Shown piece by piece: positions 41,871-52,985 of a stretch of DNA of 64,000 bases. The position numbers and the translations under genes are program-made. Within the stretch, counting starts at the first letter, position 1. Every line of letters starts with the position of its first letter. The notes under the pieces are model-generated. The model had not been told where the DNA came from, did not search any database, and saw only the letters and a program-made list of their open reading frames with translations. The DNA is from Hyalangium gracile (lineage in GTDB: Bacteria > Myxococcota > Myxococcia > Myxococcales > Myxococcaceae): NCBI RefSeq assembly GCF_020103725.1, contig NZ_JAHXBG010000008.1, forward strand, positions 186,001 to 250,000, written 5' to 3'.

Positions 41871-42023
41871 ATGCAAGCCAAGAAGCGCGCACAGAATGGG
41901 GCTGAGGTCCGCACCGAGGACGCCAAGGCGTCGCGTCCGGTGGGGATGCAGGCCATGGGACCGACGCTCTACGAGCAGATCCGCCGCGTCCTGGTCGAGA
42001 TGAAGCTGGTGTCCGAGAATTGA
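41871..42023 (+). CDS. Small 50-residue protein
   Basis: ATG at 41871 with a GGGGAAGGA ribosome-binding site 8-10 nt upstream, reading 50 codons to TGA 42021. Lys/Arg/Glu-rich N-terminal half (MQAKKRAQNGAEVRTEDAKA), then a helix GPTLYEQIRRVLVEMKLVSEN-like end. Too short for standard calling, but with a clean start, codon use like its neighbours and two hairpins directly after the stop. Function unknown; no partner is evident. Confidence 0.5.
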   Translation: MQAKKRAQNGAEVRTEDAKASRPVGMQAMGPTLYEQIRRVLVEMKLVSEN

Positions 42024-42042
42024 ACAGGACGCCGTGAAGCGC

Positions 42043-42063
42043 CGCGCCCTCATGGAGGGCGCG
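42043..42063. terminator. Hairpin after the small gene
   Basis: Perfect 9-bp stem CGCGCCCTC/GAGGGCGCG with a 3-nt loop, 19 bases after the 50-residue gene's stop. A second stem-loop follows at 42073. No T tract is present, so it could be a bidirectional terminator or an mRNA-stabilising structure between convergent genes. Confidence 0.45.
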
Positions 42064-42072
42064 GGTGGTACG

Positions 42073-42093
42073 GGGCTCCCGCCTGGGGAGCCC
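42073..42093. terminator. Second hairpin between convergent genes
   Basis: 8-bp stem GGGCTCCC/GGGAGCCC with a 5-nt loop, 9 bases after the previous hairpin and 47 bases before the end of the FYDLN-acid gene on the other strand. Confidence 0.4.
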
Positions 42094-42139
42094 TGATTCG
42101 GAGTGAGGACTCGCTGGGGTGTTTGAGACCCACCCCCCG

Positions 42140-42418
42140 CTAGATGTCCTCCTCCTCGTCGGCCTCGACGGGCTCCTCGTCGAAGGAGTCGAGATCCTCC
42201 TCGTCCTCGGCGGCCTCAGGCTCCTCGGGCTCCGGCTCGATGACCTTCGGAGCGGCAGCCAGGCGGCCACGGCGCCCCTCGGACGCCGGCTTGAGGGCCG
42301 GGCTCTCGCGCTGGTCTGCCCCGCACTTCGGGCAGAGCGGATCCGGCTTCTTCATGTCATAGAACTTCGTTGCGCACTTGAAGCAGACGTACTTTGTCCC
42401 GAGGTCCTTCGCCGGCAT
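42140..42418 (-). CDS. FYDLN-acid domain protein (TIGR02300-like)
   Basis: 92-residue protein. N-terminal zinc ribbon: LGTKYVCFKCATKFYDMKKP, then LCPKCGADQ (two CxxC). The C-terminal half is almost pure Glu/Asp (EPEPEEPEAAEDEEDLDSFD). This is the FYDLN-acid family, small cytosolic proteins of unknown function in proteobacteria. ATG at 42418. Divergent from the AgmX-like gene across a 147-bp region that must hold both promoters. Confidence 0.9.
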   Translation of the reverse strand: MPAKDLGTKYVCFKCATKFYDMKKPDPLCPKCGADQRESPALKPASEGRRGRLAAAPKVIEPEPEEPEAAEDEEDLDSFDEEPVEADEEEDI

Positions 42419-42565
42419 CTCGCCACCTTCTGAAACGAGGAAAGCTGAAACCCAAGGCGCGGGTGCATAGTTGGCCCTCGCAAAGGAGTCAACGGGACGT
42501 TTTGCACCCGAGGACTCTGGAGTAGCATCCCCCACCCGTTTCCCCAGCGCGCATCGGTCGCCCCC

Positions 42566-44443
42566 TTGAACTTCTCCTGTGACAAGTGTCAGAGGCGGTA
42601 CTCCATCGCGGACGAGAAAGTCCGCGGGAAGACCGTCAAGGTCCGTTGTAAGAACTGCCAGAACGTCATCTCGGTCCAGGGGCCGCCCGCCGAGATGGAG
42701 GAGAGCACCCGCGTGGTGTCTCTCGCGGACGTAGAGCGGATCCGAGAGCAGGAGCGCGCGCTGATGGCCGCCTCGGCTGCTCCGGCCGCTACGGCTGGCG
42801 GCAACCCCTGGGAGGAGGAGCCCACCCGGGCTGCTCCGGCCCGTCCCGCGGCCGCGCCCTGGTTCGTGATGGTGAAGGGCAAGCAGGAGGGCCCGCTGGA
42901 CGAGGCCGGCCTGCAGGCGCTCGTGGAGAGCGGCGCGATCAACACGCGCAGCTTCTTCTGGCAGCAGGGCCTGGCGGACTGGAAGCGCGGCGCGGACATC
43001 CCGGAGCTCTCCGGCATCTTCGCGGCGCCGCCTCCTGCCGCCGCGCCGCCGCCCGCGCCGCCGCTGCCGCCCGAGCCCTCCACCTCCAGCATGCGAGGGC
43101 AGCGGGGTGGAGCCGCCGCCCGGCAGCAGCCGGTGCAGCAGGAGGACGATGGCGCCTGGGACAACGTGCCCACCACGGTGGGGCGTGCCCCGGTCGCGGC
43201 CGGCAGGGAGCCGTGGGATCTGGATCCGCCCGCGGCCGCGCAGCCGCAGCAGGCCCAGCAGCAGCCGGCGTGGGACTTCGACGCCGCGCCGCGGCAGGAG
43301 CAGCAGGATCAGCCCGCCTGGGACGAGCCCGCGCCTCAGCATCAGGAGGAGCAGCAGGATCAGCCCGCCTGGGACGAGCCCGCGCCTCAGCAGCACCATC
43401 ATCATCAAGAGGAGCAGCAGGATCAGCCCGCCTGGGACGAGCCCACCGAGCCCACGCCGCAGCAGCAGCGCACCGCCGCGCGCGGGGGCAACAACAAGGC
43501 GGGCGTGGCGGATGATCTGTTCTCCGACCTGGACCTGCCGGACAAGAACGACCAGCTGGATCAGCCCGAGCCGCCGACGTCGGTGAACCCCGAGCCGGAT
43601 CCGCTGGCCGCGGTGGGCGGGGGCAAGCCGGGTCGCGATGGGAAGAAGCCCGTCGAGGACACGCGCTACTTCATGGCGAAGTCCGGCGTCACCAAGCGCA
43701 ACCCGGTGTGGAAGGTGGCGCTCTTCATCCTCATCCCCATCTTCCTGGTGGTGGGCGGGGCGTTCGCCGCGGACCGGCTGAACGTGGTGCCCAAGGTGAA
43801 GGTGGTGAACGCGCAGGGGCAGACCGAGGAGAAGTCCCTGTTCTTCTCGGGCGAGGGCCGCAACGAGCTGCGCGACCTGCTGATGGGCAAGAAGAAGACG
43901 GCGCCTCCCACGCCGCCGCCGACGCCGGCCGCCAACGACAAGAAGCCGACGCCGGGCGGCTCCGCGCCGAAGCCGGATCCGAGCTCTCCCGAGGAGACGA
44001 AGGCCGCGGTGCCGGAGACGGGCAAGTCCGCCGCGGAGCTCGACGCGCTCTACGGGGATGGCTCCAAGACGGAGGTCAACCCCGAGGTGCGCAAGGACAC
44101 CGAGGTGGCGGCCAAGGATGCCGAGAGCACGGGCGGGCTGCCGGCCGAGGACATCATGAAGGTGGTGGCGGCGTCCCAGGGCGCCATCCAGGGCTGCGTG
44201 GAGACGGAGCTGCGCAAGAACCCCTCCTTCAAGGGTGGCAAGGTGATGCTGGTGGCCACCGTGGGCACCTCGGGCACGGTGAAGGGGGCGAAGCTGGACC
44301 GCAAGGAGCTGGACTCCTCCGCCGTGGGCGACTGCATCAAGAAGAGCGCCAGGCGGATGGTCTTCCCCGCCTTCAAGATGGAGGACGGCTCGGCGGAGAT
44401 GGACGTGGAGATCCCGCTGGTCCTCTCCTCCGGAGCGAGGTAA
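42566..44443 (+). CDS. AgmX/GltJ-like protein: zinc ribbon, GYF_2, TM, TonB-like C-terminus
   Basis: 625 residues, TTG start. N-terminal zinc ribbon (residues 1-40: CDKCQRRYSIADEKVRG, RCKNCQNVI). GYF_2 domain (about 95-150: WFVMVKGKQEGPLDEAGLQA, WKRGADIPEL). A disordered Pro/Gln/Asp linker carries three EQQDQPAWDEP repeats. One membrane helix sits near 390-410 (VALFILIPIFLVVGGAF). The C-terminal AgmX/PglI domain is about 535-625 (QGAIQGCVETELRKNPSFKG). In Myxococcus, GltJ/AgmX of this layout is part of the gliding machinery and binds MglA. Here there are no other glt genes, so this may be a paralogue with another task. Confidence 0.85.
   Translation: MNFSCDKCQRRYSIADEKVRGKTVKVRCKNCQNVISVQGPPAEMEESTRVVSLADVERIREQERALMAASAAPAATAGGNPWEEEPTRAAPARPAAAPWFVMVKGKQEGPLDEAGLQALVESGAINTRSFFWQQGLADWKRGADIPELSGIFAAPPPAAAPPPAPPLPPEPSTSSMRGQRGGAAARQQPVQQEDDGAWDNVPTTVGRAPVAAGREPWDLDPPAAAQPQQAQQQPAWDFDAAPRQEQQDQPAWDEPAPQHQEEQQDQPAWDEPAPQQHHHHQEEQQDQPAWDEPTEPTPQQQRTAARGGNNKAGVADDLFSDLDLPDKNDQLDQPEPPTSVNPEPDPLAAVGGGKPGRDGKKPVEDTRYFMAKSGVTKRNPVWKVALFILIPIFLVVGGAFAADRLNVVPKVKVVNAQGQTEEKSLFFSGEGRNELRDLLMGKKKTAPPTPPPTPAANDKKPTPGGSAPKPDPSSPEETKAAVPETGKSAAELDALYGDGSKTEVNPEVRKDTEVAAKDAESTGGLPAEDIMKVVAASQGAIQGCVETELRKNPSFKGGKVMLVATVGTSGTVKGAKLDRKELDSSAVGDCIKKSARRMVFPAFKMEDGSAEMDVEIPLVLSSGAR
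43296..43449 (+). repeat. Internal tandem repeats in the AgmX-like gene
   Basis: Three in-frame copies of a unit encoding EQQDQPAWDEP(AP) lie in the linker, the second followed by a four-His run. Copies are nearly identical at the DNA level, indicating recent slippage; repeat number probably varies between strains. Confidence 0.8.
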
Positions 44444-44452
44444 CAGGCGCGC

Positions 44453-44716
44453 ATGTACCTGGGACGCGTCCTCGGCACGGTGGTGTGCGAGCGGAAGTAC
44501 GAGGGGCTCGAGGGCAAGCGGTTGCTGGTGGTCCAGCCGCTGGACCACAACCGCGAGCCCACGGGCAGCCCGGAGGTGGCCGTGGACACGGTGTCCGCGG
44601 GCCGCGGGGAGCTGGTGTACCTGGTGGGCAGCCGCGAGGCGGCCCTGGCGCTGGAGCCCACGTTCGTGCCGGTGGATGCCGCCATCGTCGGCATCGTGGA
44701 CGCGGTGGACGTATGA
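44453..44716 (+). CDS. Microcompartment vertex protein, EutN/CcmL family (copy 1)
   Basis: 87-residue BMC-P protein that forms pentamers capping vertices of bacterial microcompartment shells. Typical pattern: MYLGRVLGTVVCERKYEGLE, GKRLLVVQPL, VAVDTVSAGRGELVYLVGSR, AAIVGIVDAVDV. It starts 9 bp after the AgmX-like gene and its TGA overlaps the next gene's ATG (ATGA). No hexameric BMC-H shell gene lies in the window. Confidence 0.92.
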   Translation: MYLGRVLGTVVCERKYEGLEGKRLLVVQPLDHNREPTGSPEVAVDTVSAGRGELVYLVGSREAALALEPTFVPVDAAIVGIVDAVDV

Positions 44717-44982
44717 ACCTGTGCAAGGTGCTCGGCAGCGTCACCTCCACCCTCAAGCACCCGGCCTTCGAGGGCCGGAAGCTGATGGTGGTGCAGCCGC
44801 TGGATGAGAAGCAGCAGCCCACGGGCAAGAGCTTCATCGCGGTGGACCACACCTCCTCGGCCGGGCCGGGGGACGTGGTGCTGGTGATGCGCGAGGGCGG
44901 CGGGGTGCGGCAGATCCTCGGCGACAAGACGCTGCCCATCCGCTCGCTCATCGTCGGAGTGGTGGACGGGGTGGACACGTGA
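44713..44982 (+). CDS. Microcompartment vertex protein, EutN/CcmL family (copy 2)
   Basis: 89-residue second BMC-P protein: MNLCKVLGSVTSTLKHPAFE, GRKLMVVQPLDEKQQPTG, IAVDHTSSAGPGDVVLVMRE, SLIVGVVDGVDT. It differs from copy 1 across most of its length, so the two are old paralogues rather than a recent duplication. The 4-nt overlaps on both sides (ATGA before, GTGA after) tie it to copy 1 and the aldolase. Confidence 0.92.
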   Translation: MNLCKVLGSVTSTLKHPAFEGRKLMVVQPLDEKQQPTGKSFIAVDHTSSAGPGDVVLVMREGGGVRQILGDKTLPIRSLIVGVVDGVDT

Positions 44983-45647
44983 GCGAGGGCTTCGTGCCGC
45001 TGCCGAAGCTGCGGGCGGACGTGGTGGACACGTCCCGCCGCATGCACGAGTACGGCTGGGTGGCCAACCACGACGGCAACGTCTCGGTGCGGCTCAAGGG
45101 TGGGCGCTTCCTCATCACCTGCACGGCGGTGTCCAAGCGGGACGTGGACGACGCCTCGCTGCTGGTGGTGGACGCCCAGGGCAAGGTGCTGGAGGGGCGG
45201 CGCAAGCCCTTCAGCGAGCTGGAGCTGCACCTGGCCGTCTACCGGGCTCGGCCGGAGGTGATGGTGGTGCTGCACGCGCACCCGCCGGTGGCCACCGCCT
45301 TCGGCCTGGTGGGGCAGGAGCTGTCGCCCATCGCGCTGCCGGAGATGGTGGTTTCGCTGGGGGACCGGGTGCCCACGCTGCCGCGCGCGATGCCCCGGGA
45401 GCCCGAGGGCGTCAAGCGCGTGGAGGCCGCCGCCGCCGAGTACGACGCCTTCCTGCTGGCCGGCAACGGTGCCCTCACGATGGGCGAGGACATGACGCAG
45501 GCCCTGCTGCGCATGGAGCTCGTCGAGCACTACGCGAAGATCCTCATGGCCGCCCGCTCGCTGGGGCCGGTGCAGCCGCTGGCGCCGGGAGACGTGCAGA
45601 AGCTGCTCGAGGCGCGCAAGAAGGCGGGCCTTGGACCGCGCCGCTAG
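44979..45647 (+). CDS. Class II aldolase/adducin-family enzyme
   Basis: 222-residue zinc aldolase of the fuculose-1-phosphate aldolase type, cleaving a phosphorylated keto-sugar to DHAP and an aldehyde. Zinc ligands are visible: His99 and His101 (LHAHPP) and His184 (LVEHYAK); Glu80 (KPFSELELH) is the catalytic acid/base. The N-terminal motif YGWVANHDGNVSVRL is intact. GTG start within GTGA overlap. With two BMC-P genes upstream it may be a cargo enzyme of a microcompartment, as in planctomycete-type fucose/rhamnose compartments; substrate is unproven. Confidence 0.88.
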   Translation: MSEGFVPLPKLRADVVDTSRRMHEYGWVANHDGNVSVRLKGGRFLITCTAVSKRDVDDASLLVVDAQGKVLEGRRKPFSELELHLAVYRARPEVMVVLHAHPPVATAFGLVGQELSPIALPEMVVSLGDRVPTLPRAMPREPEGVKRVEAAAAEYDAFLLAGNGALTMGEDMTQALLRMELVEHYAKILMAARSLGPVQPLAPGDVQKLLEARKKAGLGPRR

Positions 45648-46818
45648 CACCTCGGAGCGGCTGCCGCGCACGGTGGTGGTGCTCGGCCTGGTCTCGCTGC
45701 TGACCGACGTGAGCAGCGAGATGATCTTCCCCCTGCTGCCGGCCTTCCTCGCCGCGCGTCTGCCGGCGGTGCCGCTGCTGCTGGGGACCATGGAGGGGCT
45801 GGCGGATCTGGTGTCCGCGCTCCTCAAGTACCAGTCCGGCGTGTGGGCGGACCGGGCGCAGCGGCTCAAGCCGCTGGTGCTGCTGGGGTACGGCGTCTCC
45901 AGCCTGGCGAGGCCGATGATGGCCTTCGTCACGGCGGTGTGGCAGCCGCTGCTCATCCGCTCGCTGGATCGGGTGGGCAAGGGCGTGCGGACCAGCCCTC
46001 GCGACGCGATCATCGCCCACACCGTGCCCGCGGGCCTGCGGGGCCGCGCCTATGGCTTCCATCGAGGCATGGACCATGCGGGGGCGGCGCTCGGGTCGCT
46101 GGTGGCGCTGCTGCTGCTGGCGGCCGGGATGAAGGTGGAGCATGTCTTCCTGGCGGCGGCCGTACCGGGCTTCCTGGGCGTGCTGGCCATCCTCATGGCG
46201 TCCGAGCCACAGCGCGAGCAGGCCCCGGCGCAATCCGGAGGCGCTGGGCGAGAGCCCGTGCCGCGGCGGCTGGCCTGGTACCTCGTCCCGGTGGTCCTCT
46301 TCGGGATCGCGAACTCCACGGATGCCTTCATCCTGCTCAAGCTGAGCGAGGAGGGCGCCAGCCCGACCCTGCTGCCCCTGGCGTGGCTGATGCTGCACGT
46401 GGTGAAGGCGGCAGTCTCCTATCCGGCGGGGTGGCTGGCGGACCGGCTCGGCGCGCCGCGCCTGGTGATGGTGGGGTGGCTGCTGTACGCCTTCTGCTAC
46501 GTGGGGCTCTCGAGGGTGCACGGCGTGACGGGCACGCTCGTCGTCATGGCGGTGTACGGGCTGCACTACGCGCTCTCCGAGGGCGCGGAGAAGTCGCTGC
46601 TCACCTCGCTGGTGCCGGCGACCGCCCGGGGGCGCGCGTTCGGGCTCTACAACGGCCTGAAGGGAGGCGCGGCGCTGGCGGCCGGGCTGCTCTTCGGGGC
46701 GGTGTGGACGCGGTGGGGAAGCTCCGTCGCCTTCGTCATGGCGGGGATCATCGCGGCGGTGAGCGCGATCCTGCTCGTGCTCTTCCTGCCGCGTGCCCGG
46801 CCCTCCGAGACGGCCTGA
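45631..46818 (+). CDS. MFS transporter
   Basis: 395-residue inner-membrane major facilitator with 12 predicted helices. Loop 2-3 motif-A-like sequence (GVWADRAQRLKP; second half GWLADRLGAPRL) and the N-terminal VSLLTDVSSEMIFPLLPAFL match the YajR/multidrug-like subfamily common beside oxyanion or sugar genes. TTG start at 45631 overlaps the aldolase by 17 bp, so it is co-translated. Given position, it may carry the aldolase's substrate or product; that is inference only. Confidence 0.85.
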   Translation: MDRAASTSERLPRTVVVLGLVSLLTDVSSEMIFPLLPAFLAARLPAVPLLLGTMEGLADLVSALLKYQSGVWADRAQRLKPLVLLGYGVSSLARPMMAFVTAVWQPLLIRSLDRVGKGVRTSPRDAIIAHTVPAGLRGRAYGFHRGMDHAGAALGSLVALLLLAAGMKVEHVFLAAAVPGFLGVLAILMASEPQREQAPAQSGGAGREPVPRRLAWYLVPVVLFGIANSTDAFILLKLSEEGASPTLLPLAWLMLHVVKAAVSYPAGWLADRLGAPRLVMVGWLLYAFCYVGLSRVHGVTGTLVVMAVYGLHYALSEGAEKSLLTSLVPATARGRAFGLYNGLKGGAALAAGLLFGAVWTRWGSSVAFVMAGIIAAVSAILLVLFLPRARPSETA

Positions 46819-46821
46819 GGG

Positions 46822-47058
46822 CTACAGATCGAAGTTCCCAGGGGGCGGCTGCTTCTTCTTCGCCCGCTGGCGCGCCTGGCGCACCTGGGCGCGCAGCGCT
46901 TCGGTGGCCTCGGTGTCCACCCAGCCCGTGTCCAGGTCGATGATGTCACCCTCGCGCGCCTCCGCGGGCAGCTCGGCGCGAGGACGGGTCACCTGCCGAC
47001 CCTCGATGATGAGCACCGCCACTTCCTCCTCGAAGCGATCCACCGTGGCCTTTGGCAT
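46822..47058 (-). CDS. DUF3006 family protein
   Basis: 78-residue small protein: KATVDRFEEEVAVLIIEGRQ, then LPAEAREGDIIDLD and a basic tail QARQRAKKKQPP. DUF3006 proteins are usually encoded next to ComEC-like metallo-beta-lactamase proteins, as here (9 bp after the lipoprotein gene). No biochemical role is known; an RNA- or DNA-binding beta-barrel is plausible from size and charge. Confidence 0.82.
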   Translation of the reverse strand: MPKATVDRFEEEVAVLIIEGRQVTRPRAELPAEAREGDIIDLDTGWVDTEATEALRAQVRQARQRAKKKQPPPGNFDL

Positions 47059-47067
47059 GGGCGTTCC

Positions 47068-48426
47068 TCAGGGATTGCAGTCTCTGGCGGGAGAGCGTTC
47101 CTTCATCGCATCTTCCCGAGAGGTGTACGTGACGAGGTTCTCGGCGTGGATCTTCTTCACGATGGGGCAGGTGGCCTTGTGGAAGATCTGCTTGTGCCGG
47201 CTGGCGTAGTACAGCTCGCCGGAGCCTCTGCTCTTCTTTCCGGTGCGGACGGCGCGCTCCTCGCCTCGCTTGGGGCTGACCTCCACCACCTTGTCGAAGC
47301 GCGAGAGGTCCACGTCCGGCGCCTTGGCGCTCACGGCCTTCGCGGCGGCCGGCTTCACCTCGGGCTTCGCGGGCTCCGGCTTCGCGGGGGCGGGGGGCGG
47401 CGTCAGCGCGATGAAGGGCAGGGCGTTCTTGTCCTCGGGCACGAAGACATGCTCGGCGTTCGGGGACTCGCCGGCCTGGAGCTTCTGGGTGGTGAGGACG
47501 AACTTCTCCCCGTCGCTCACCGCATGCACCTCGCCCACGACATCGGTGCGGAACAGCTGCGCGTTCACGGCCTTCAGCCGAGCCAGCGTGGCCTGGCCCG
47601 GCGCGTGCTTCTCACCCAGGCTGATGATGGCGGCCTGGGGGCCCACCCGCTGGAGGAAGGGCTCGGTGGTGGCGAGGTCCGCTCCGTGCGCCGCCACCTT
47701 GAGCAGCGTGGAGCCCAGCTCCGCTCCGCCGTTCAGCAGCGCGGCCTCCGTCTCGGACCGTGCGTCGCCCGCGAAGATGACGGACGTCTTCCCATGCACG
47801 AGGCGCAGGACGATGGAGTTGGCCTCGTGCTGCGCGGCCATGCCGTTGCCGGAGGTCTGCACCGCGAGCAGCGGATGGCTGGGCGCCCGGGGCCACAGGA
47901 CGGTCAGCTCCACATCCTTGCCCAGCGGCAGGCGCATCAGCTCCTGGGGCTGCGAGGGGTTCGGAGCCGGTGAGAAGATCGCCACCCCTTGCGAGCCGAG
48001 CGTCGTGAGGAGCGTGTCGTACTCGGGCGGGTTGCCCGGCAGCTGGGGCTCGAGGAGCTGGCGCGGGTTGGCGATCTTCTGCACCACCTCCATGGCGCCG
48101 TAGTGGTCCGGGGCCGGGTGGGTGAGGACGACGAGATCCAACCGCGCGGCGAGCAGCTCCGGGAGCCGGTTGATGAGGTGGTTGACGGCCGAGGCCGGGC
48201 CGGCGTCGACGAGGACGGTGCGTCCCTCGGGGGAGACGATGAGCGCGGAGTCGCCCTGTCCCACGTCGAGGAAGTAGACGTGGAGCTTCCCGTCCGGCGC
48301 GCTGCCCAGGAAGTGGGTCGTCGCGCTGGCGCGAGGGGCCGGCGCGGGGGCGGGGGGAGGGGGCGGCTCCTGCTTGCACGCGGCGACGAGCAGCAGGCCC
48401 AACAGTGGCAGCAGGCGCGCGTTCAT
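47068..48426 (-). CDS. ComEC-like MBL-fold lipoprotein with altered metal site
   Basis: 452 residues. Lipobox LVAAC. MBL fold at about 45-290 begins FLDVGQGDSALIVSPEGRTV. The metal motif THxHxDH reads THPAPDHYGAM, so the second His is Ala. The later HH motif reads KVAAHGADL, so one of two His is Ala. Other features (FAGDARSETEAALL) are kept. A Lys/Ala/Pro linker and a C-terminal Ada-like metal-binding-type segment (FHKATCPIVKK, YTSREDA, PARDCNP) follow. Likely catalytically impaired, possibly a binding or regulatory paralogue. ATGA overlap with the upstream intact paralogue. Confidence 0.85.
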   Translation of the reverse strand: MNARLLPLLGLLLVAACKQEPPPPPAPAPAPRASATTHFLGSAPDGKLHVYFLDVGQGDSALIVSPEGRTVLVDAGPASAVNHLINRLPELLAARLDLVVLTHPAPDHYGAMEVVQKIANPRQLLEPQLPGNPPEYDTLLTTLGSQGVAIFSPAPNPSQPQELMRLPLGKDVELTVLWPRAPSHPLLAVQTSGNGMAAQHEANSIVLRLVHGKTSVIFAGDARSETEAALLNGGAELGSTLLKVAAHGADLATTEPFLQRVGPQAAIISLGEKHAPGQATLARLKAVNAQLFRTDVVGEVHAVSDGEKFVLTTQKLQAGESPNAEHVFVPEDKNALPFIALTPPPAPAKPEPAKPEVKPAAAKAVSAKAPDVDLSRFDKVVEVSPKRGEERAVRTGKKSRGSGELYYASRHKQIFHKATCPIVKKIHAENLVTYTSREDAMKERSPARDCNP

Positions 48427-49703
48427 GGGTTGCAGTCCTCGGCGGGCCGGCGCTCACGGGCAGCGGTGGCACGGCTCGTATACACCTTGCGCTCCTTCGT
48501 CTTGGCCCGCTTGAGCGTGGAGCAGTCCTCCCGATGGAAGACCTCGCTGCCCTTGAGGCTCACGAAGCGCAGGACGTTCGTGGGGGCCGGCGCCGGGGGG
48601 CTCTCGACAGCGGCGGGCGCGGGCGTGGACGCGGGCGCGGGCAGCCTTCCCGAGGCCAGGATCGTCTCCTTCCCGGAGCGAGCGGAGGCGGGAGGCGCGA
48701 CGGCGGGGACGGGCCGGGGCGTGGGGCTCGTGGGCGCTGGGGAGGCGCTCGCGGTGGCGGTCCGCACCTCGCCTGGGACGACGAAGCGCGAGGTGTCCCC
48801 CTTCTCGGCCTGCAGGGTGACGGTGGTGCCGTCGCTCACGGCCTTGACCTCCCCGTGCTGGTCGGTGCGGAACACCCGGGCGCCGGTGGCCTCGAGCCTC
48901 GAGAGCGCCTCGGGGGTGGGGTGGCCGTAGTCGTTGCGCGCGGCGCAGGAGATGACCGCCGCCTTGGGCTTCACCGCCGCCAGGAACGCCTCCGTGGAGG
49001 AGTGCTTGCCGCCGTGGTGCGCCACCTTCAGCACGGTGGAGGTGTAGTCCACCTGCTTGCGGAGCAGGGCCTCCTCGGTGTCCGGCTCCGCGTCCCCCGT
49101 GAAGAAGAACGCCGTGCGGCCATAGGTCAGCCGCATGACGATGGAGTTGGAGTTCACGTCCGAGCGGGTGCTCTTGAGGAACGGCTCGCGCGGGTAGCGG
49201 GGCCAGTAGACGGTGAGCAGGGCGCCCTCGCCCAGCCCGATGGTGAGGAAGCTCTCCGGCGTCTGGGGGTTCGGCTCGGGCGTCATCACCTGGCCGACCT
49301 CCTGGCCCACGTACTCGAGCAGATCCCGGTAGGCCGCGCTCGGGTGGTCGAAGCCAGGGTCCATGTAGCGCCGGGCTCCCACCGCCCCGATGGCGTCCTT
49401 CATGCTGCCCAGGTGATCCAGGTGCGGGTGGGTGAGGATGACCAGGTCCAGCGGCGCCTGGACGAGCTGCCGCAGCCGGGCCGCCAGATGCTCTCCGGCC
49501 TCCGGAGGCCCGCCGTCGATCAGCACCGTCTTGCCCGTGGGCGAGACGACGAGCGCCGCGTCGCCCTGGCCCACGTCGAAGAAGTACACCGCGAGGGGCT
49601 TGCCGGGAGCGGTGGGGGCAGGGGCGGGGGCAGGCTGCGCCAGGCCTGGCAGGGCCGTGAGGAGGAGGACGAGGAGGCTGAGCAGCCGGAAGGGGGACAT
49701 CAC
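48423..49703 (-). CDS. ComEC/Rec2-like MBL-fold hydrolase, exported
   Basis: 426 residues with a signal peptide (LLSLLVLLLTALPGLAQ). The MBL domain has an intact metal site: THPHLDHLGSM, FFTGDAEPDTEE and KVAHHGGKHSST. It corresponds to the extracellular nuclease/phosphodiesterase-like domain of ComEC without the channel. A Pro/Ala linker leads to a C-terminal segment VFHREDCSTLKRAK, VYTSRATAA, PAEDCNP, also found in the downstream paralogue. A secreted DNA-processing role is possible. First gene of the operon with its paralogue and DUF3006. Confidence 0.87.
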   Translation of the reverse strand: MMSPFRLLSLLVLLLTALPGLAQPAPAPAPTAPGKPLAVYFFDVGQGDAALVVSPTGKTVLIDGGPPEAGEHLAARLRQLVQAPLDLVILTHPHLDHLGSMKDAIGAVGARRYMDPGFDHPSAAYRDLLEYVGQEVGQVMTPEPNPQTPESFLTIGLGEGALLTVYWPRYPREPFLKSTRSDVNSNSIVMRLTYGRTAFFFTGDAEPDTEEALLRKQVDYTSTVLKVAHHGGKHSSTEAFLAAVKPKAAVISCAARNDYGHPTPEALSRLEATGARVFRTDQHGEVKAVSDGTTVTLQAEKGDTSRFVVPGEVRTATASASPAPTSPTPRPVPAVAPPASARSGKETILASGRLPAPASTPAPAAVESPPAPAPTNVLRFVSLKGSEVFHREDCSTLKRAKTKERKVYTSRATAARERRPAEDCNP

Positions 49704-49809
49704 AGGGCGACTCTAGCGCCTGCCACCCCCTGTGAGGCACCCGGCAAGCACCCAGGCGGACTCGTCCGAATGCTTCCCGAGGGGCCCCCATCTGGGCTAC
49801 ATCCGCTCC

Positions 49810-50766
49810 ATGGCTCAGGCTGATGACGTGAACCAGGTCGTCGACGAGATCGCCGACCGTGTGCGCCGCAGGATGCAAGCCCTCCGAGCAGGCAAGGAGC
49901 AGCCCTGCACCGCTTCCCCCGGGCCCGCCGCACGGGACTCCGGCGCCTCCACTCGCAGTGCGGGTGACGGGGCGGGAACCAGTGGGAGCTCCAAGGAGTG
50001 TGCGCCCTCCTGCGATGTGTGCCCCAACGTGGACAGCTGCGGTACCGTGGGAGCCATCAAGGCGGGGGCGGCACGCATCTCGCCGGAGTCCATCCGCACC
50101 AGCGCGGACATCGCCCCCTACATCGACCACACGCTGCTCAAGCCCGAGGCCAGCCGCGAGGAGGTCATCAAGCTGGCCGAGGAGGCGCGCAAGCACGGGT
50201 TCGCCACGGTGTGCGTGAACTCGGTGAACGTGGCGCTGGCGGCGCGGATCCTGTCCGGCTCGAAGACGGTGCCCATCGCGGTGGTGGGGTTCCCGCTCGG
50301 CGCGGCGCTGCCCAGCGCCAAGGCCTTCGAGGCGCGTGAGGCCATCCGCTGCGGCGCGAAGGAGATCGACATGGTGATCAACATCGGCGCGCTGAAGGCG
50401 AAGGACTACGCGCTGGTGTTCAAGGACATCTCCATGGTGGTGGAGGCCAGCCGGCCGCACCCGGTCAAGGTCATCCTCGAGACGAGCCAGCTCACCCACG
50501 AGGAGAAGATCTCCGCCTGCGCGCTGTCCAAGGCTGCGGGCGCCGCCTTCGTGAAGACGTCCACGGGCTTCAGCTCCGGCGGGGCCACCGCCGAGGACGT
50601 GGCGCTGATGCGCAAGGTGGTGGGCGACGACGTGGGGGTGAAGGCCTCTGGCGGCGTGCGCTCGTCCGAGGACGCGATGAAGATGATCCAGGCCGGAGCC
50701 AACCGCATCGGCGCCTCGGCGTCGGTGGCCATCATCACCGGCCAGAAGTCCACCGCGAAGTACTGA
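49810..50766 (+). CDS. deoC: Deoxyribose-phosphate aldolase
   Basis: 318-residue cytosolic class I aldolase splitting 2-deoxyribose-5-phosphate to glyceraldehyde-3-phosphate and acetaldehyde. The TIM barrel starts near residue 95 ([13 protein letters not shown]), with Schiff-base Lys in [14 protein letters not shown] and the second Lys in [10 protein letters not shown]. Unusual: an N-terminal extension of about 95 residues with a cysteine cluster C-x3-C-x2-C-x5-C ([17 protein letters not shown]), not part of standard DeoC. It could bind zinc or an Fe-S cluster. ATG 49810. Followed by a DksA-type gene and a phosphohexomutase; with deoA at 60921 it completes deoxynucleoside catabolism. Confidence 0.9.
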
Positions 50767-50793: not shown

Positions 50794-51186
50794 GTGACGG
50801 ACGCCCAGCGAGAGGAACTGCGCAACCTGCTGCTCGGGCTGCACGCCGAGCTGACTGGCAAGGCGCCGCTGAAGATCGAGCCCAACCGGACGGATGACGC
50901 GAAGGTGGGCGGCGACGAGGACGAGCAGCCGCTCAACGAGATGATGCAGGCGATTGCCTCCAGCCGGAACCGGAACATGGACGGCGTGCTGGCGCGCGTG
51001 GTGAAGGCGCTGGGCAAGCTGCGCAACGATCCGGACAGCTTCGGCGAGTGCGAGGACTGTGGCGACGAGCTGCCGTATGGGCGGCTCAAGGCCATGCCGT
51101 ACGTGGAGTACTGCGTGGAGTGCCAGGGCAAGAAGGACAAGCCCAAGGGTGGGCCCACGCGCAAGAAGCTCACCGACTACACCTGA
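50794..51186 (+). CDS. TraR/DksA-type zinc-finger protein
   Basis: 130-residue protein with a helical N-terminus and a C4 zinc finger: FGECEDCGDELPYGRLKAMP, then YCVECQGKKDKP. DksA-type proteins enter the RNA polymerase secondary channel and modulate transcription with ppGpp. The coiled-coil tip DxxDxA of true DksA is not evident (nearest is MDGVLARVVKAL), so this is a TraR/DksA relative of unknown strength. GTG start at 50794, 27 bp after deoC; probably same transcript. Confidence 0.87.
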   Translation: MTDAQREELRNLLLGLHAELTGKAPLKIEPNRTDDAKVGGDEDEQPLNEMMQAIASSRNRNMDGVLARVVKALGKLRNDPDSFGECEDCGDELPYGRLKAMPYVEYCVECQGKKDKPKGGPTRKKLTDYT

Positions 51187-51230
51187 ACGCGTCACGCGGG
51201 GCCCCGGGAGACGGGGCGAGGAGGCGGGAC

Positions 51231-52985
51231 ATGGACATCACCAGGCTGAGGGAGCAGGCGGAGGCGTGGCGCAAGGCGGATCCGGACCCGAACACCGCGG
51301 AGGAGCTGGCGCGGCTGCTGACAGCCGGGGATGCCGCGGAGCTGGCGGACCGCTTCGCGGGCAACCTGGAGTTCGGCACCGCGGGGCTGCGCGGCGTGCT
51401 GGGCGCGGGGCCCAACCGGATGAACCGGGCGGTGGTGCGCCGCACCACGGCGGGGCTGGCGCGCTACCTCAAGGCCCAGGTGCCGGACGTGGCCACGCGC
51501 GGCGTGGTGGTGGGGCGGGATGGGCGGAGGATGAGCGCCGAGTTCGCGGAGGACACGGCCTGCGTGCTCGCCGCCGAGGGCATCCCCGCGCTGGTGTTCC
51601 CCACGCTGGCTCCGACGCCGCTGACGGCGTTCGCCACGCTGCACCTGAACGCGGCGGCGGCGGTGATGGTCACCGCCAGCCACAACCCGCCCGAGTACAA
51701 CGGCTACAAGGTGTACTGGGGCAATGGCGCGCAGATCATCCCTCCGCACGACAAGGGGATCGCCGCCGCCATCGACGCGGTGGAGCCCGCCAACGAGGTG
51801 CGGCTGCTGACTCCGGCCGAGGCTCGCTCCAAGGGGCTGTGGCGGGAGCTCCAGGCGGATGTGGGAGAGGCCTACCTGAAGGCCATTCTGGGGCTGCGGA
51901 TGTATGGGCGCGGCTCGGACACGCTCGCCATCGTCTATACGGCGATGCACGGCGTGGGCGGCGTGTGGATGGACCGTGCCATCCGTGCGGCGGGCTTCTC
52001 GCGCTTCCACGTCGTGGCTGAGCAGCAGCAGCCGGACGGAACCTTCCCGACGGTGCGCTTCCCGAACCCCGAGGAGCCTGGCGCGATGGACCTGTCCACC
52101 GCCGTCGCCGAGCGCGAGAAGGCGCAGCTGGTGCTCGCCAACGATCCGGACGCGGATCGGCTCGCGGTGATGGTGCGTGACGGGGAAGGCAAGCTGCGCA
52201 TGCTCACCGGCAACGAGGTGGGCGTGCTGCTGGGCCACTACCTGCTCACCCAGGGCACCAAGAAGGCCCGGCCCTATGTGGCCACCACCATCGTCTCGTC
52301 GGTGCAGCTCGGGCAGATCGCCCACGAGCTGAACGCCGCGTATGACGAGGTGCTGACGGGCTTCAAGTGGATCGCCAACCGCGCGCTGGAGCGCGAGCGG
52401 AGCGAGAGCATCCAGTTCGTCTTCGGCTACGAGGAGGCGCTCGGCTACACGGTGGGCACGGTGGCGCGCGACAAGGACGGCATCAGCGCGGGCCTGGTGT
52501 TCGCGGACCTGGCGGCGTGGTGCGAGTCTCGCGGGACGACGGTGCTCGGCTACCTGGAGGAGATCCAGCGCCGGCACGGCCTCTTCGTCGGGGGGCAGCG
52601 CAACTTCACGTTCAAGGGCGCGGAGGGGGCGCAGACCATCGCGCGCATCATGGAGGGCTTCCGTGCCGCGCCTCCGGAGCGCGTGGGGGCCTACGCCGTC
52701 CAGAACTCCAAGGACTACAAGAAGCGCGAGGCGCGCAGGGGCGGGAAGGTGGAGCCGCTCACCCTGCCGTCCTCGAACGTCATCGCCTACGAGCTGGAGG
52801 GCGGCCACCGTGTCACCCTGCGGCCCTCCGGCACCGAGCCGAAGATCAAATACTACTTCGAGCTGAAGGAGACGCTCGGAGCCGGTGAGCCCATGGCCCA
52901 GGCCCGTGCTCGGGCGGAGGGGCGGCTCCAGGCGTTGATGGATGCCTTCGTGGCGCTCGCGCGTGATCGCGGGCAGCCCGCCTGA
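51231..52985 (+). CDS. Phosphohexomutase (phosphoglucomutase/phosphomannomutase, PgcA/PGM2-like)
   Basis: 584-residue alpha-D-phosphohexomutase. Four domains: active Ser in VTASHNPPEYNGYKVYW, metal loop NDPDADRLAV, sugar-binding GYEEALGYTVG and phosphate-binding RPSGTEPKIKYY. The long form with FGTAGLRGVLGAGPNRMN matches PgcA and the vertebrate PGM2 group, which can also interconvert (deoxy)ribose-1- and -5-phosphate. Beside deoC that activity would feed deoxyribose-1-phosphate from the phosphorylase into the aldolase; this is inference. ATG 51231, with GAGGAGGCGGG upstream. Confidence 0.9.
   Translation: MDITRLREQAEAWRKADPDPNTAEELARLLTAGDAAELADRFAGNLEFGTAGLRGVLGAGPNRMNRAVVRRTTAGLARYLKAQVPDVATRGVVVGRDGRRMSAEFAEDTACVLAAEGIPALVFPTLAPTPLTAFATLHLNAAAAVMVTASHNPPEYNGYKVYWGNGAQIIPPHDKGIAAAIDAVEPANEVRLLTPAEARSKGLWRELQADVGEAYLKAILGLRMYGRGSDTLAIVYTAMHGVGGVWMDRAIRAAGFSRFHVVAEQQQPDGTFPTVRFPNPEEPGAMDLSTAVAEREKAQLVLANDPDADRLAVMVRDGEGKLRMLTGNEVGVLLGHYLLTQGTKKARPYVATTIVSSVQLGQIAHELNAAYDEVLTGFKWIANRALERERSESIQFVFGYEEALGYTVGTVARDKDGISAGLVFADLAAWCESRGTTVLGYLEEIQRRHGLFVGGQRNFTFKGAEGAQTIARIMEGFRAAPPERVGAYAVQNSKDYKKREARRGGKVEPLTLPSSNVIAYELEGGHRVTLRPSGTEPKIKYYFELKETLGAGEPMAQARARAEGRLQALMDAFVALARDRGQPA

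Follow-up and report, generated by a model that had tools for sequence, protein, structure and literature searches.

Bacterial microcompartments (BMCs) of the type named for Haliangium ochraceum (HO) are the closest described precedent for the genes discussed here. The main text of the 2021 survey by Sutter et al. (PMC8217296) presents HO shells as the primary model of shell structure, describes the function of the organelle as enigmatic, and says that nucleic acid catabolism is a role that would suit myxobacteria. The same text describes type I HO satellites as two BMC-P genes plus an aldolase gene, and mentions a pfam01791 enzyme encoded elsewhere in some HO genomes, in some cases with an N-terminal extension resembling an encapsulation peptide (EP). 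An excerpt of Axen et al. 2014 (PMC4207490) credits Haliangium with three BMC-P, three BMC-T and one BMC-H proteins. The DNA considered in this report, hereafter called the window, is a 64,000-nucleotide stretch (C8:186001-250000) of the 11.7-Mb, 81-contig genome of Hyalangium gracile. It carries two adjacent genes for BMC-P vertex proteins (P1 and P2), a class II aldolase gene and, approximately 4 kb downstream of these satellite genes, a gene for the deoxyribose-phosphate aldolase DeoC. We consider it very likely that the window carries the satellite part of an HO-type microcompartment, an organelle predicted from gene content to confine the acetaldehyde arising from deoxynucleoside breakdown. 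The split locus itself is a new example of an arrangement that has already been catalogued.

Like a type I HO satellite, the window combines a PF03319 pair with a PF00596 gene on one contig (C8), with a third BMC-P gene on another (C5), and the genome includes a pfam01791 enzyme with an EP-like N-terminal extension. It differs in that DeoC is encoded 4 kb away, the pair has a GltJ-like gene upstream of it, and a cysteine cluster follows the EP-like helix. None of the terms cysteine, iron, GYF, zinc, gliding and AgmX occurs in the main text of that survey (PMC8217296), supplementary locus diagrams aside. Another relevant precedent is the sugar phosphate utilisation (SPU) BMC, which likewise unites a DeoC-type aldolase with an aldehyde dehydrogenase (AldDH) and which the same main text predicts to use DNA breakdown products. 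However, the shell proteins encoded here are closest to those of HO among solved proteins.

Shell genes on two contigs

An earlier sequence-only reading of this region had described a run of five genes, and their coordinates were confirmed (Table 1), as were the 9-nt gap between the GltJ-like open reading frame (ORF) and P1 and the overlaps of P1 with P2 and of P2 with the aldolase gene (4 nt each). The aldolase and MFS genes overlap by 17 nt, provided that the listed TTG start of the latter is correct. P1 and P2, whose products are 44% identical, form one operon with the aldolase gene by the look of these overlaps. A promoter scan of positions 42000-50000 returned no sigma-70-type site, but 0.2 were expected, and this result is hence uninformative.

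A profile search of the whole genome found no PF00936 match within the window. All four matches are on contig C5, where they span 3.3 kb (C5:353.6-356.9 kb), and the only other PF03319 gene of the genome, a third BMC-P, adjoins them. The sequence-only reading had allowed that the shell hexamers might be encoded elsewhere, had proposed a genome search for BMC-H and BMC-T (PF00936), and had conceded that such a locus would make this an ordinary split operon. The one BMC-H, two BMC-T and third BMC-P genes on C5 are that locus. The gene order there is BMC-T (CcmP-like), BMC-H, BMC-P, a short ORF, AldDH and a BMC-T resembling PduT, where the names given to the two BMC-T proteins come from models whose cut-offs they do not reach. 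The AldDH scores 675 bits against NF011927 (cut-off 403). The best natural match in the PDB is 5djb (HO-5815) for the BMC-H, with a designed BMC-H fusion (6ner) ranking above it, 5v74 for the BMC-P, HO-5816 in 5v74 for one BMC-T, and 5dih, which we take to be a Haliangium protein, for the other. Because the best natural solved relatives of its shell proteins are HO shell proteins, we read the C5 locus as that of an HO organelle. A main locus with HO-like BMC-H, BMC-T and BMC-P proteins and an AldDH, by which we recognize the HO type, is present in the same genome. The short ORF between the BMC-P and AldDH genes of the main locus (L005:13546-13756) has no Pfam match.

The class to which H. gracile belongs was sampled with 145 genomes, most of whose assemblies are drafts. 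PF03319 is present in 45 and PF00936 in 47, the latter including every genome with BMC-P (45/45). Each of the two others (G005 and G034) has a single weak PF00936 match (E = 9.8e-6 and 3.3e-4, respectively) and lacks BMC-P, and both are treated here as BMC-less. An adjacent BMC-P pair occurs in 41 of the 45 BMC-P-bearing genomes, a recurrence that exceeds chance, and the pair and PF00936 are on different contigs in 41 of 45, among the PF00936 matches listed. The satellite arrangement is the rule in this class, and vertex proteins without any PF00936 occur in none of its sampled genomes. The sequence-only reading had entertained the idea that the pentamers function without a classical, hexameric compartment. 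Consistent with this idea, PF00936 is missing from the window, and two drafts that carry the pair (G115 and G130) have only weaker, BMC-T-like PF00936 matches and no strong BMC-H. Nevertheless, a BMC-H and two BMC-T proteins are encoded in the same genome as the window, and the genome-wide and class-wide searches give no support to free-standing pentamers, which we regard as extremely improbable.

The anatomy of the satellite is also widely conserved. Among 40 further satellites, the 4-nt overlap of P1 and P2 recurs in 35, and the aldolase gene begins no more than 17 nt after P2 in 37. The exceptions are L059 and L083, whose satellite stretches contain no aldolase match, and L078, in which the match is 5.6 kb away. 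The genome that contains L059 (G092) apparently has an aldolase-MFS pair and DeoC (L158) approximately 23 kb away from the P pair. Because some stretches end at contig ends, the counts for MFS (tblastn match in at least 5 of 40) and DeoC (at least 8 of 40) are lower bounds.

Table 1. Features of the window, with positions counted from its first nucleotide
Feature	Positions	Strand	Supporting matches and remarks
GltJ-like protein	42566-44443	+	PF13717, PF14237; zinc ribbon, GYF_2, Gln/Pro-rich middle, AgmX/PglI C-terminal domain
BMC-P vertex protein 1 (P1, satellite)	44453-44716	+	PF03319, E 3.6e-28; best solved relatives 4i7a, 5v74
BMC-P vertex protein 2 (P2, satellite)	44713-44982	+	PF03319, E 1.6e-25
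Class II aldolase	44979-45647	+	PF00596, E 2.9e-43
MFS carrier, optional neighbour, not BMC-specific	45631-46818	+	PF07690
Deoxyribose-phosphate aldolase DeoC, with EP-like N-terminal helix and cysteine cluster	49810-50766	+	TIGR00126
EP-like amphipathic helix of DeoC	49810-49890	+	Hydrophobic moment 0.65; helix in AlphaFold2 model
Phosphohexomutase-superfamily enzyme, downstream of DeoC	51174-52985	+	PF02878, PF02879, PF02880, PF00408

DeoC and the proposed acetaldehyde pathway

Loci from distant groups connect the enzymes to the shell. Named genomes were scanned with an aldolase alignment and the best 80 loci were kept. In seven of these 80 (L175, L180, L182, L183, L187, L204 and L226), the genes for BMC-H, BMC-P, AldDH, BMC-T, BMC-P, BMC-P and aldolase are found in one stretch. 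Two loci, L218 (Bacteriovoracaceae) and L220 (a gammaproteobacterial metagenome-assembled genome), have the order H-P-AldDH-T-P-P-DeoC-T-aldolase, which L194 (Aminicenantes) shares from AldDH onward, and three more (L167, L179 and L189) read P-P-aldolase-DeoC. The gene content of these fused, single-stretch loci is stronger evidence than the published remark that DeoC, the class II aldolase and AldDH belong to one organelle. The co-occurrence of these enzymes with shell genes in distant groups bears on the enigmatic natural job of the HO organelle.

DeoC of the window scores 270 bits against the TIGR00126 equivalog model (cut-off 117.3). Its predicted layout is an amphipathic helix, a linker, a C-x3-C-x2-C-x5-C cluster and the barrel. 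An AlphaFold2 model built with 10 sequences places the helix at residues 5-26, assigns low confidence to residues 28-78 and 83-95, and is confident for the barrel. DeoC is thus predicted to have the terminal amphipathic helix and flexible linker expected of an encapsulation peptide, although its amphipathic score alone is modest (moment 0.65 versus 0.66 for the AldDH N-terminus of the main locus; shuffle p 0.03).

In the genomes read, the cysteine cluster largely follows the distribution of the shell genes. DeoC N-termini were read in 73 genomes, namely 41 of the 45 with BMC genes and 32 of the 95 BMC-less genomes with a match, the latter partly retrieved as loci and partly hand-picked for spread. 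The cysteine count covers the stretch of 75 in-frame residues upstream of the barrel match, with the start codon left unfixed. At least four cysteines precede the barrel in 41 of 41 genomes with BMC genes and in 3 of 32 without, and the spaced pattern is present in 40 of the 41 and in the same three BMC-less genomes. Clusters of related form are also found in DeoC of L194 and L220. EP-like helices without cysteines occur in DeoC of some BMC-less genomes (moments 0.57 in G012 and 0.60 in G002), and the corresponding values for two BMC-less congeners are 0.36 (G038) and 0.32 (G044). Perhaps the EP-like helix in BMC-less DeoC proteins is a relic of a lost organelle, in which case organelle loss would be favored over gain. 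In addition, DeoC of the BMC-less loci L146, L147, L148, L149 and L150 has an EP-like helix and no cysteine cluster. The three BMC-less exceptions with cysteines (L256, L257 and L258, from genus g43 of family f9) combine an EP-like start with a strongly acidic, cysteine-rich tail, and their genomes are 2.9-3.0 Mb in length without detected BMC genes.

It is reasonable to propose how these parts might work together. The facets (a BMC-H and two BMC-T proteins), one vertex protein and an AldDH with an amphipathic N-terminus are encoded on the other contig, to which the window adds the other two BMC-P proteins, the class II aldolase and DeoC. P1 and P2 would cap vertices of the same shell, or perhaps tune it. 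DeoC, carried in by its N-terminal helix, would split 2-deoxyribose-5-phosphate inside the shell into acetaldehyde and glyceraldehyde-3-phosphate, and AldDH would convert the acetaldehyde to acetyl-CoA, whereas the class II aldolase may serve a second sugar phosphate. The GltJ-like and MFS genes frame this cassette, but they also occur without the organelle. The relatives hint that the organelle breaks down sugars from the DNA of dead cells.

The class II aldolase and the weighing of the pathway

The class II aldolase is assigned to PF00596 with 148.3 bits (cut-off 22.2), and its closest solved relatives are 6vop and, second, DrdA (6btd), with FucA nearly as close. It keeps the HxH motif and the catalytic Glu, and the third metal-ligand His, the position of which we presume from FucA, is replaced by Asn in a GNG motif. 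DrdA is likewise a class II aldolase, and its HxH and preceding Glu align with those of the window copy. In contrast, the window aldolase has an NHDGN loop motif, as well as GNG where DrdA reads NHG. The NHDGN loop motif is also present in 38 satellite copies.

The kinship with DrdA raises the prospect of an organelle with two feeds, each yielding acetaldehyde and a triose phosphate, in which DeoC would act on 2-deoxyribose-5-phosphate and a DrdA-like aldolase on 5-deoxyribulose-1-phosphate derived from 5'-deoxyadenosine. DrdA accepts acetaldehyde, which is likely its preferred substrate according to an excerpt of the DrdA study (PMC6079011). Furthermore, the genome encodes one PF01008 (IF-2B/MtnA superfamily) protein, and both aldolases plus AldDH are found in single stretches of L194, L218 and L220. 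However, FucA scores nearly equal to DrdA, none of the 25 NCBIfam models listed reaches its cut-off for the aldolase, the third metal ligand is changed, and the neighbours scanned with Pfam include no kinase or isomerase. Therefore, we hold this second feed to be doubtful.

The sequence-only reading had instead looked to fucose/rhamnose-type sugars, which would imply an organelle of the PVM type. PVM organelles do employ a class II aldolase, as an excerpt of Axen et al. 2014 (PMC4207490) states, and support for the idea is limited to this shared superfamily. The FucA equivalog model TIGR01086 gives only 76.4 bits (cut-off 400), the nearest solved relatives of the shell proteins come from HO, and the linkage to DeoC and the N-terminus of DeoC also speak against it. 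An organelle of this type is very unlikely here.

Some related aldolases may carry targeting tails. Judged by eye, a helix-like tail follows a linker in the aldolases of L180, L182, L187, L204, L194, L218 and L220, and the moments of the only two relatives computed are 0.49 (L220) and 0.48 (L182). Within the class, the aldolases of L076 and L087 have longer C-terminal tails. A VxACAPxP linker precedes the C-terminal tail in some distant aldolases (L213, L214, L215, L200, L186 and others). A C-terminal encapsulation peptide on the window aldolase was considered and rejected, because its best hydrophobic moment is 0.33 compared with the values for L220 and L182.

Several observations weigh against the proposal of an acetaldehyde-confining organelle fed by deoxynucleosides. 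The window aldolase has no marked C-terminal amphipathic tail, and its activity might be questioned because GNG without the third His is found in 38 of 39 aligned class copies, with the 39th ending at a contig end. The loci that carry both aldolases (L194, L218 and L220) read GNG as well, and the third His is kept in all seven single-stretch loci without DeoC. Four of the 45 genomes with BMC genes (G112, G114, G126 and G138; completeness 69-90%) have no DeoC match, and DeoC of L218 has a helix-like start and no cysteine cluster. Moreover, the association between the cluster and the BMC genes rests on few independent events. A Fisher test gives p of about 3e-17, a value that should not be read literally because, in a quick tree of the 73 DeoC sequences, BMC presence changes six times and the cluster five times, with two independent pairs on supported branches, and two pairs cannot reach significance. 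Finally, the phosphotransacylase family PF06130 is present in 15 of 45 genomes with BMC genes and in 4 of 100 without, and the PduL-type phosphotransacylase domain of the H. gracile genome (C2:334625-335149, in a 615-aa open frame) is unlinked to the BMC loci. For these reasons, phosphotransacylase was dismissed as a fixed partner. In G004, it is encoded approximately 1 kb from BMC-P on contig C477.

The GltJ-like gene and relatives without the organelle

The protein encoded upstream of P1 has the zinc ribbon, GYF and AgmX/PglI C-terminal domains in common with GltJ/AgmX of the gliding machinery. It exceeds the cut-off of NF033768, whereas it reaches only 99.4 bits against the gliding_GltJ equivalog model NF033761 (cut-off 450). 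By these scores, it is a relative of GltJ, not GltJ itself.

The sequence-only reading had linked this gene to the vertex genes, and the linkage proved to be stronger than was noted at the time. In 36 of the 40 other satellites, spread over six families of the class, a GltJ-like ORF comes to its end 0-310 nt upstream of P1, and L174, L177 and L199, three loci whose aldolases are more distant, have a match to the C-terminal part upstream of the P pair. Thus, the GltJ-like protein might be a working part of the organelle, a membrane-anchored protein whose cytoplasmic zinc ribbon and GYF domains bind vertex proteins and thereby tether, position or segregate microcompartments. No such link appeared among the listed results of our literature search, and GYF, zinc, gliding and AgmX go unmentioned in the main text of the HO survey. 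However, the gene is not specific to the organelle. Its last 261 residues are matched (E <= 1e-12) in 40 of 45 genomes with BMC genes and also in 51 of 100 without, although the latter count may include non-orthologous relatives and may miss some. For example, G025 has no C-terminal match, yet its locus L149 has an N-terminal one. In addition, all four BMC-P-less congeners keep the gene, and it is not adjacent to P1 in L059, L060, L080 and L087. Its occurrence in BMC-less genomes weakens the case for an obligate organelle part, and we judge even a working role to be unlikely.

The four congeners (G005, G034, G038 and G044), each read from two overlapping short loci, retain the GltJ-like gene with 66-67% identity over its length and have DeoC a few kb away. 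Together with L146-L151, they form a set of ten BMC-less genomes that share the order carboxypeptidase-like, GltJ-like, (MFS), metallo-beta-lactamase-fold genes (two each, one in L151), DeoC, DksA-like and phosphomutase. In L146, L147, L150 and L151, the match to the GltJ-like protein spans the full length, whereas it is fragmented in L148 and confined to the N-terminal part in L149. No match better than E 0.1 to P1, P2 or the aldolase exists in any of the ten neighbourhoods. Because these relatives keep the gene frame without P1, P2 and the aldolase, the three genes behave as one cassette that a genome either has or lacks, within a frame independent of it. At this site, what distinguishes same-genus relatives that have the organelle from those that do not is P1, P2 and the aldolase and MFS genes, which makes the function testable within the genus Hyalangium.

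The MFS gene had been counted as part of the operon. However, an MFS gene also follows the GltJ-like gene in some BMC-less loci, and it is missing in the BMC-bearing congener L049. Of the ten neighbourhoods, L150 has the gene, L151 has it in pieces and the other eight lack it, and in BMC-less L242 the MFS match begins 31 nt past the end of the GltJ-like match. The L151 homologue covers residues 73-182 and 267-323 only and is perhaps a decaying gene.

The features of remaining interest are the N-terminal module of DeoC, the recurring GltJ-like neighbour and the congeners that naturally lack the cassette. It is tempting to speculate that the cysteine cluster between helix and barrel binds a metal or an iron-sulfur center, is retained for as long as the organelle is, and serves within the shell for docking or redox purposes and, at the same time, that the GltJ-like protein anchors the vertices to membrane machinery, but this combined proposal has a low probability in our estimation. 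Neither role appeared among the listed results of a literature search, and the main text of the 2021 survey (PMC8217296) mentions neither under the terms given above.

Two neighbouring features deserve brief mention. A tandem pair of metallo-beta-lactamase-fold genes (47068-49703, minus strand) is located between MFS and DeoC, and the BMC-less relatives have this pair too. The phosphohexomutase-superfamily enzyme encoded downstream of DeoC reaches the cut-off of no NCBIfam model, and from its motif we presume it to be of the PGM2/phosphopentomutase type. Its gene adjoins DeoC and a DksA-like gene, and if the enzyme proves to be a phosphopentomutase, it would be a source of deoxyribose-5-phosphate. 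A phosphomutase gene is found near DeoC in BMC-less genomes as well.

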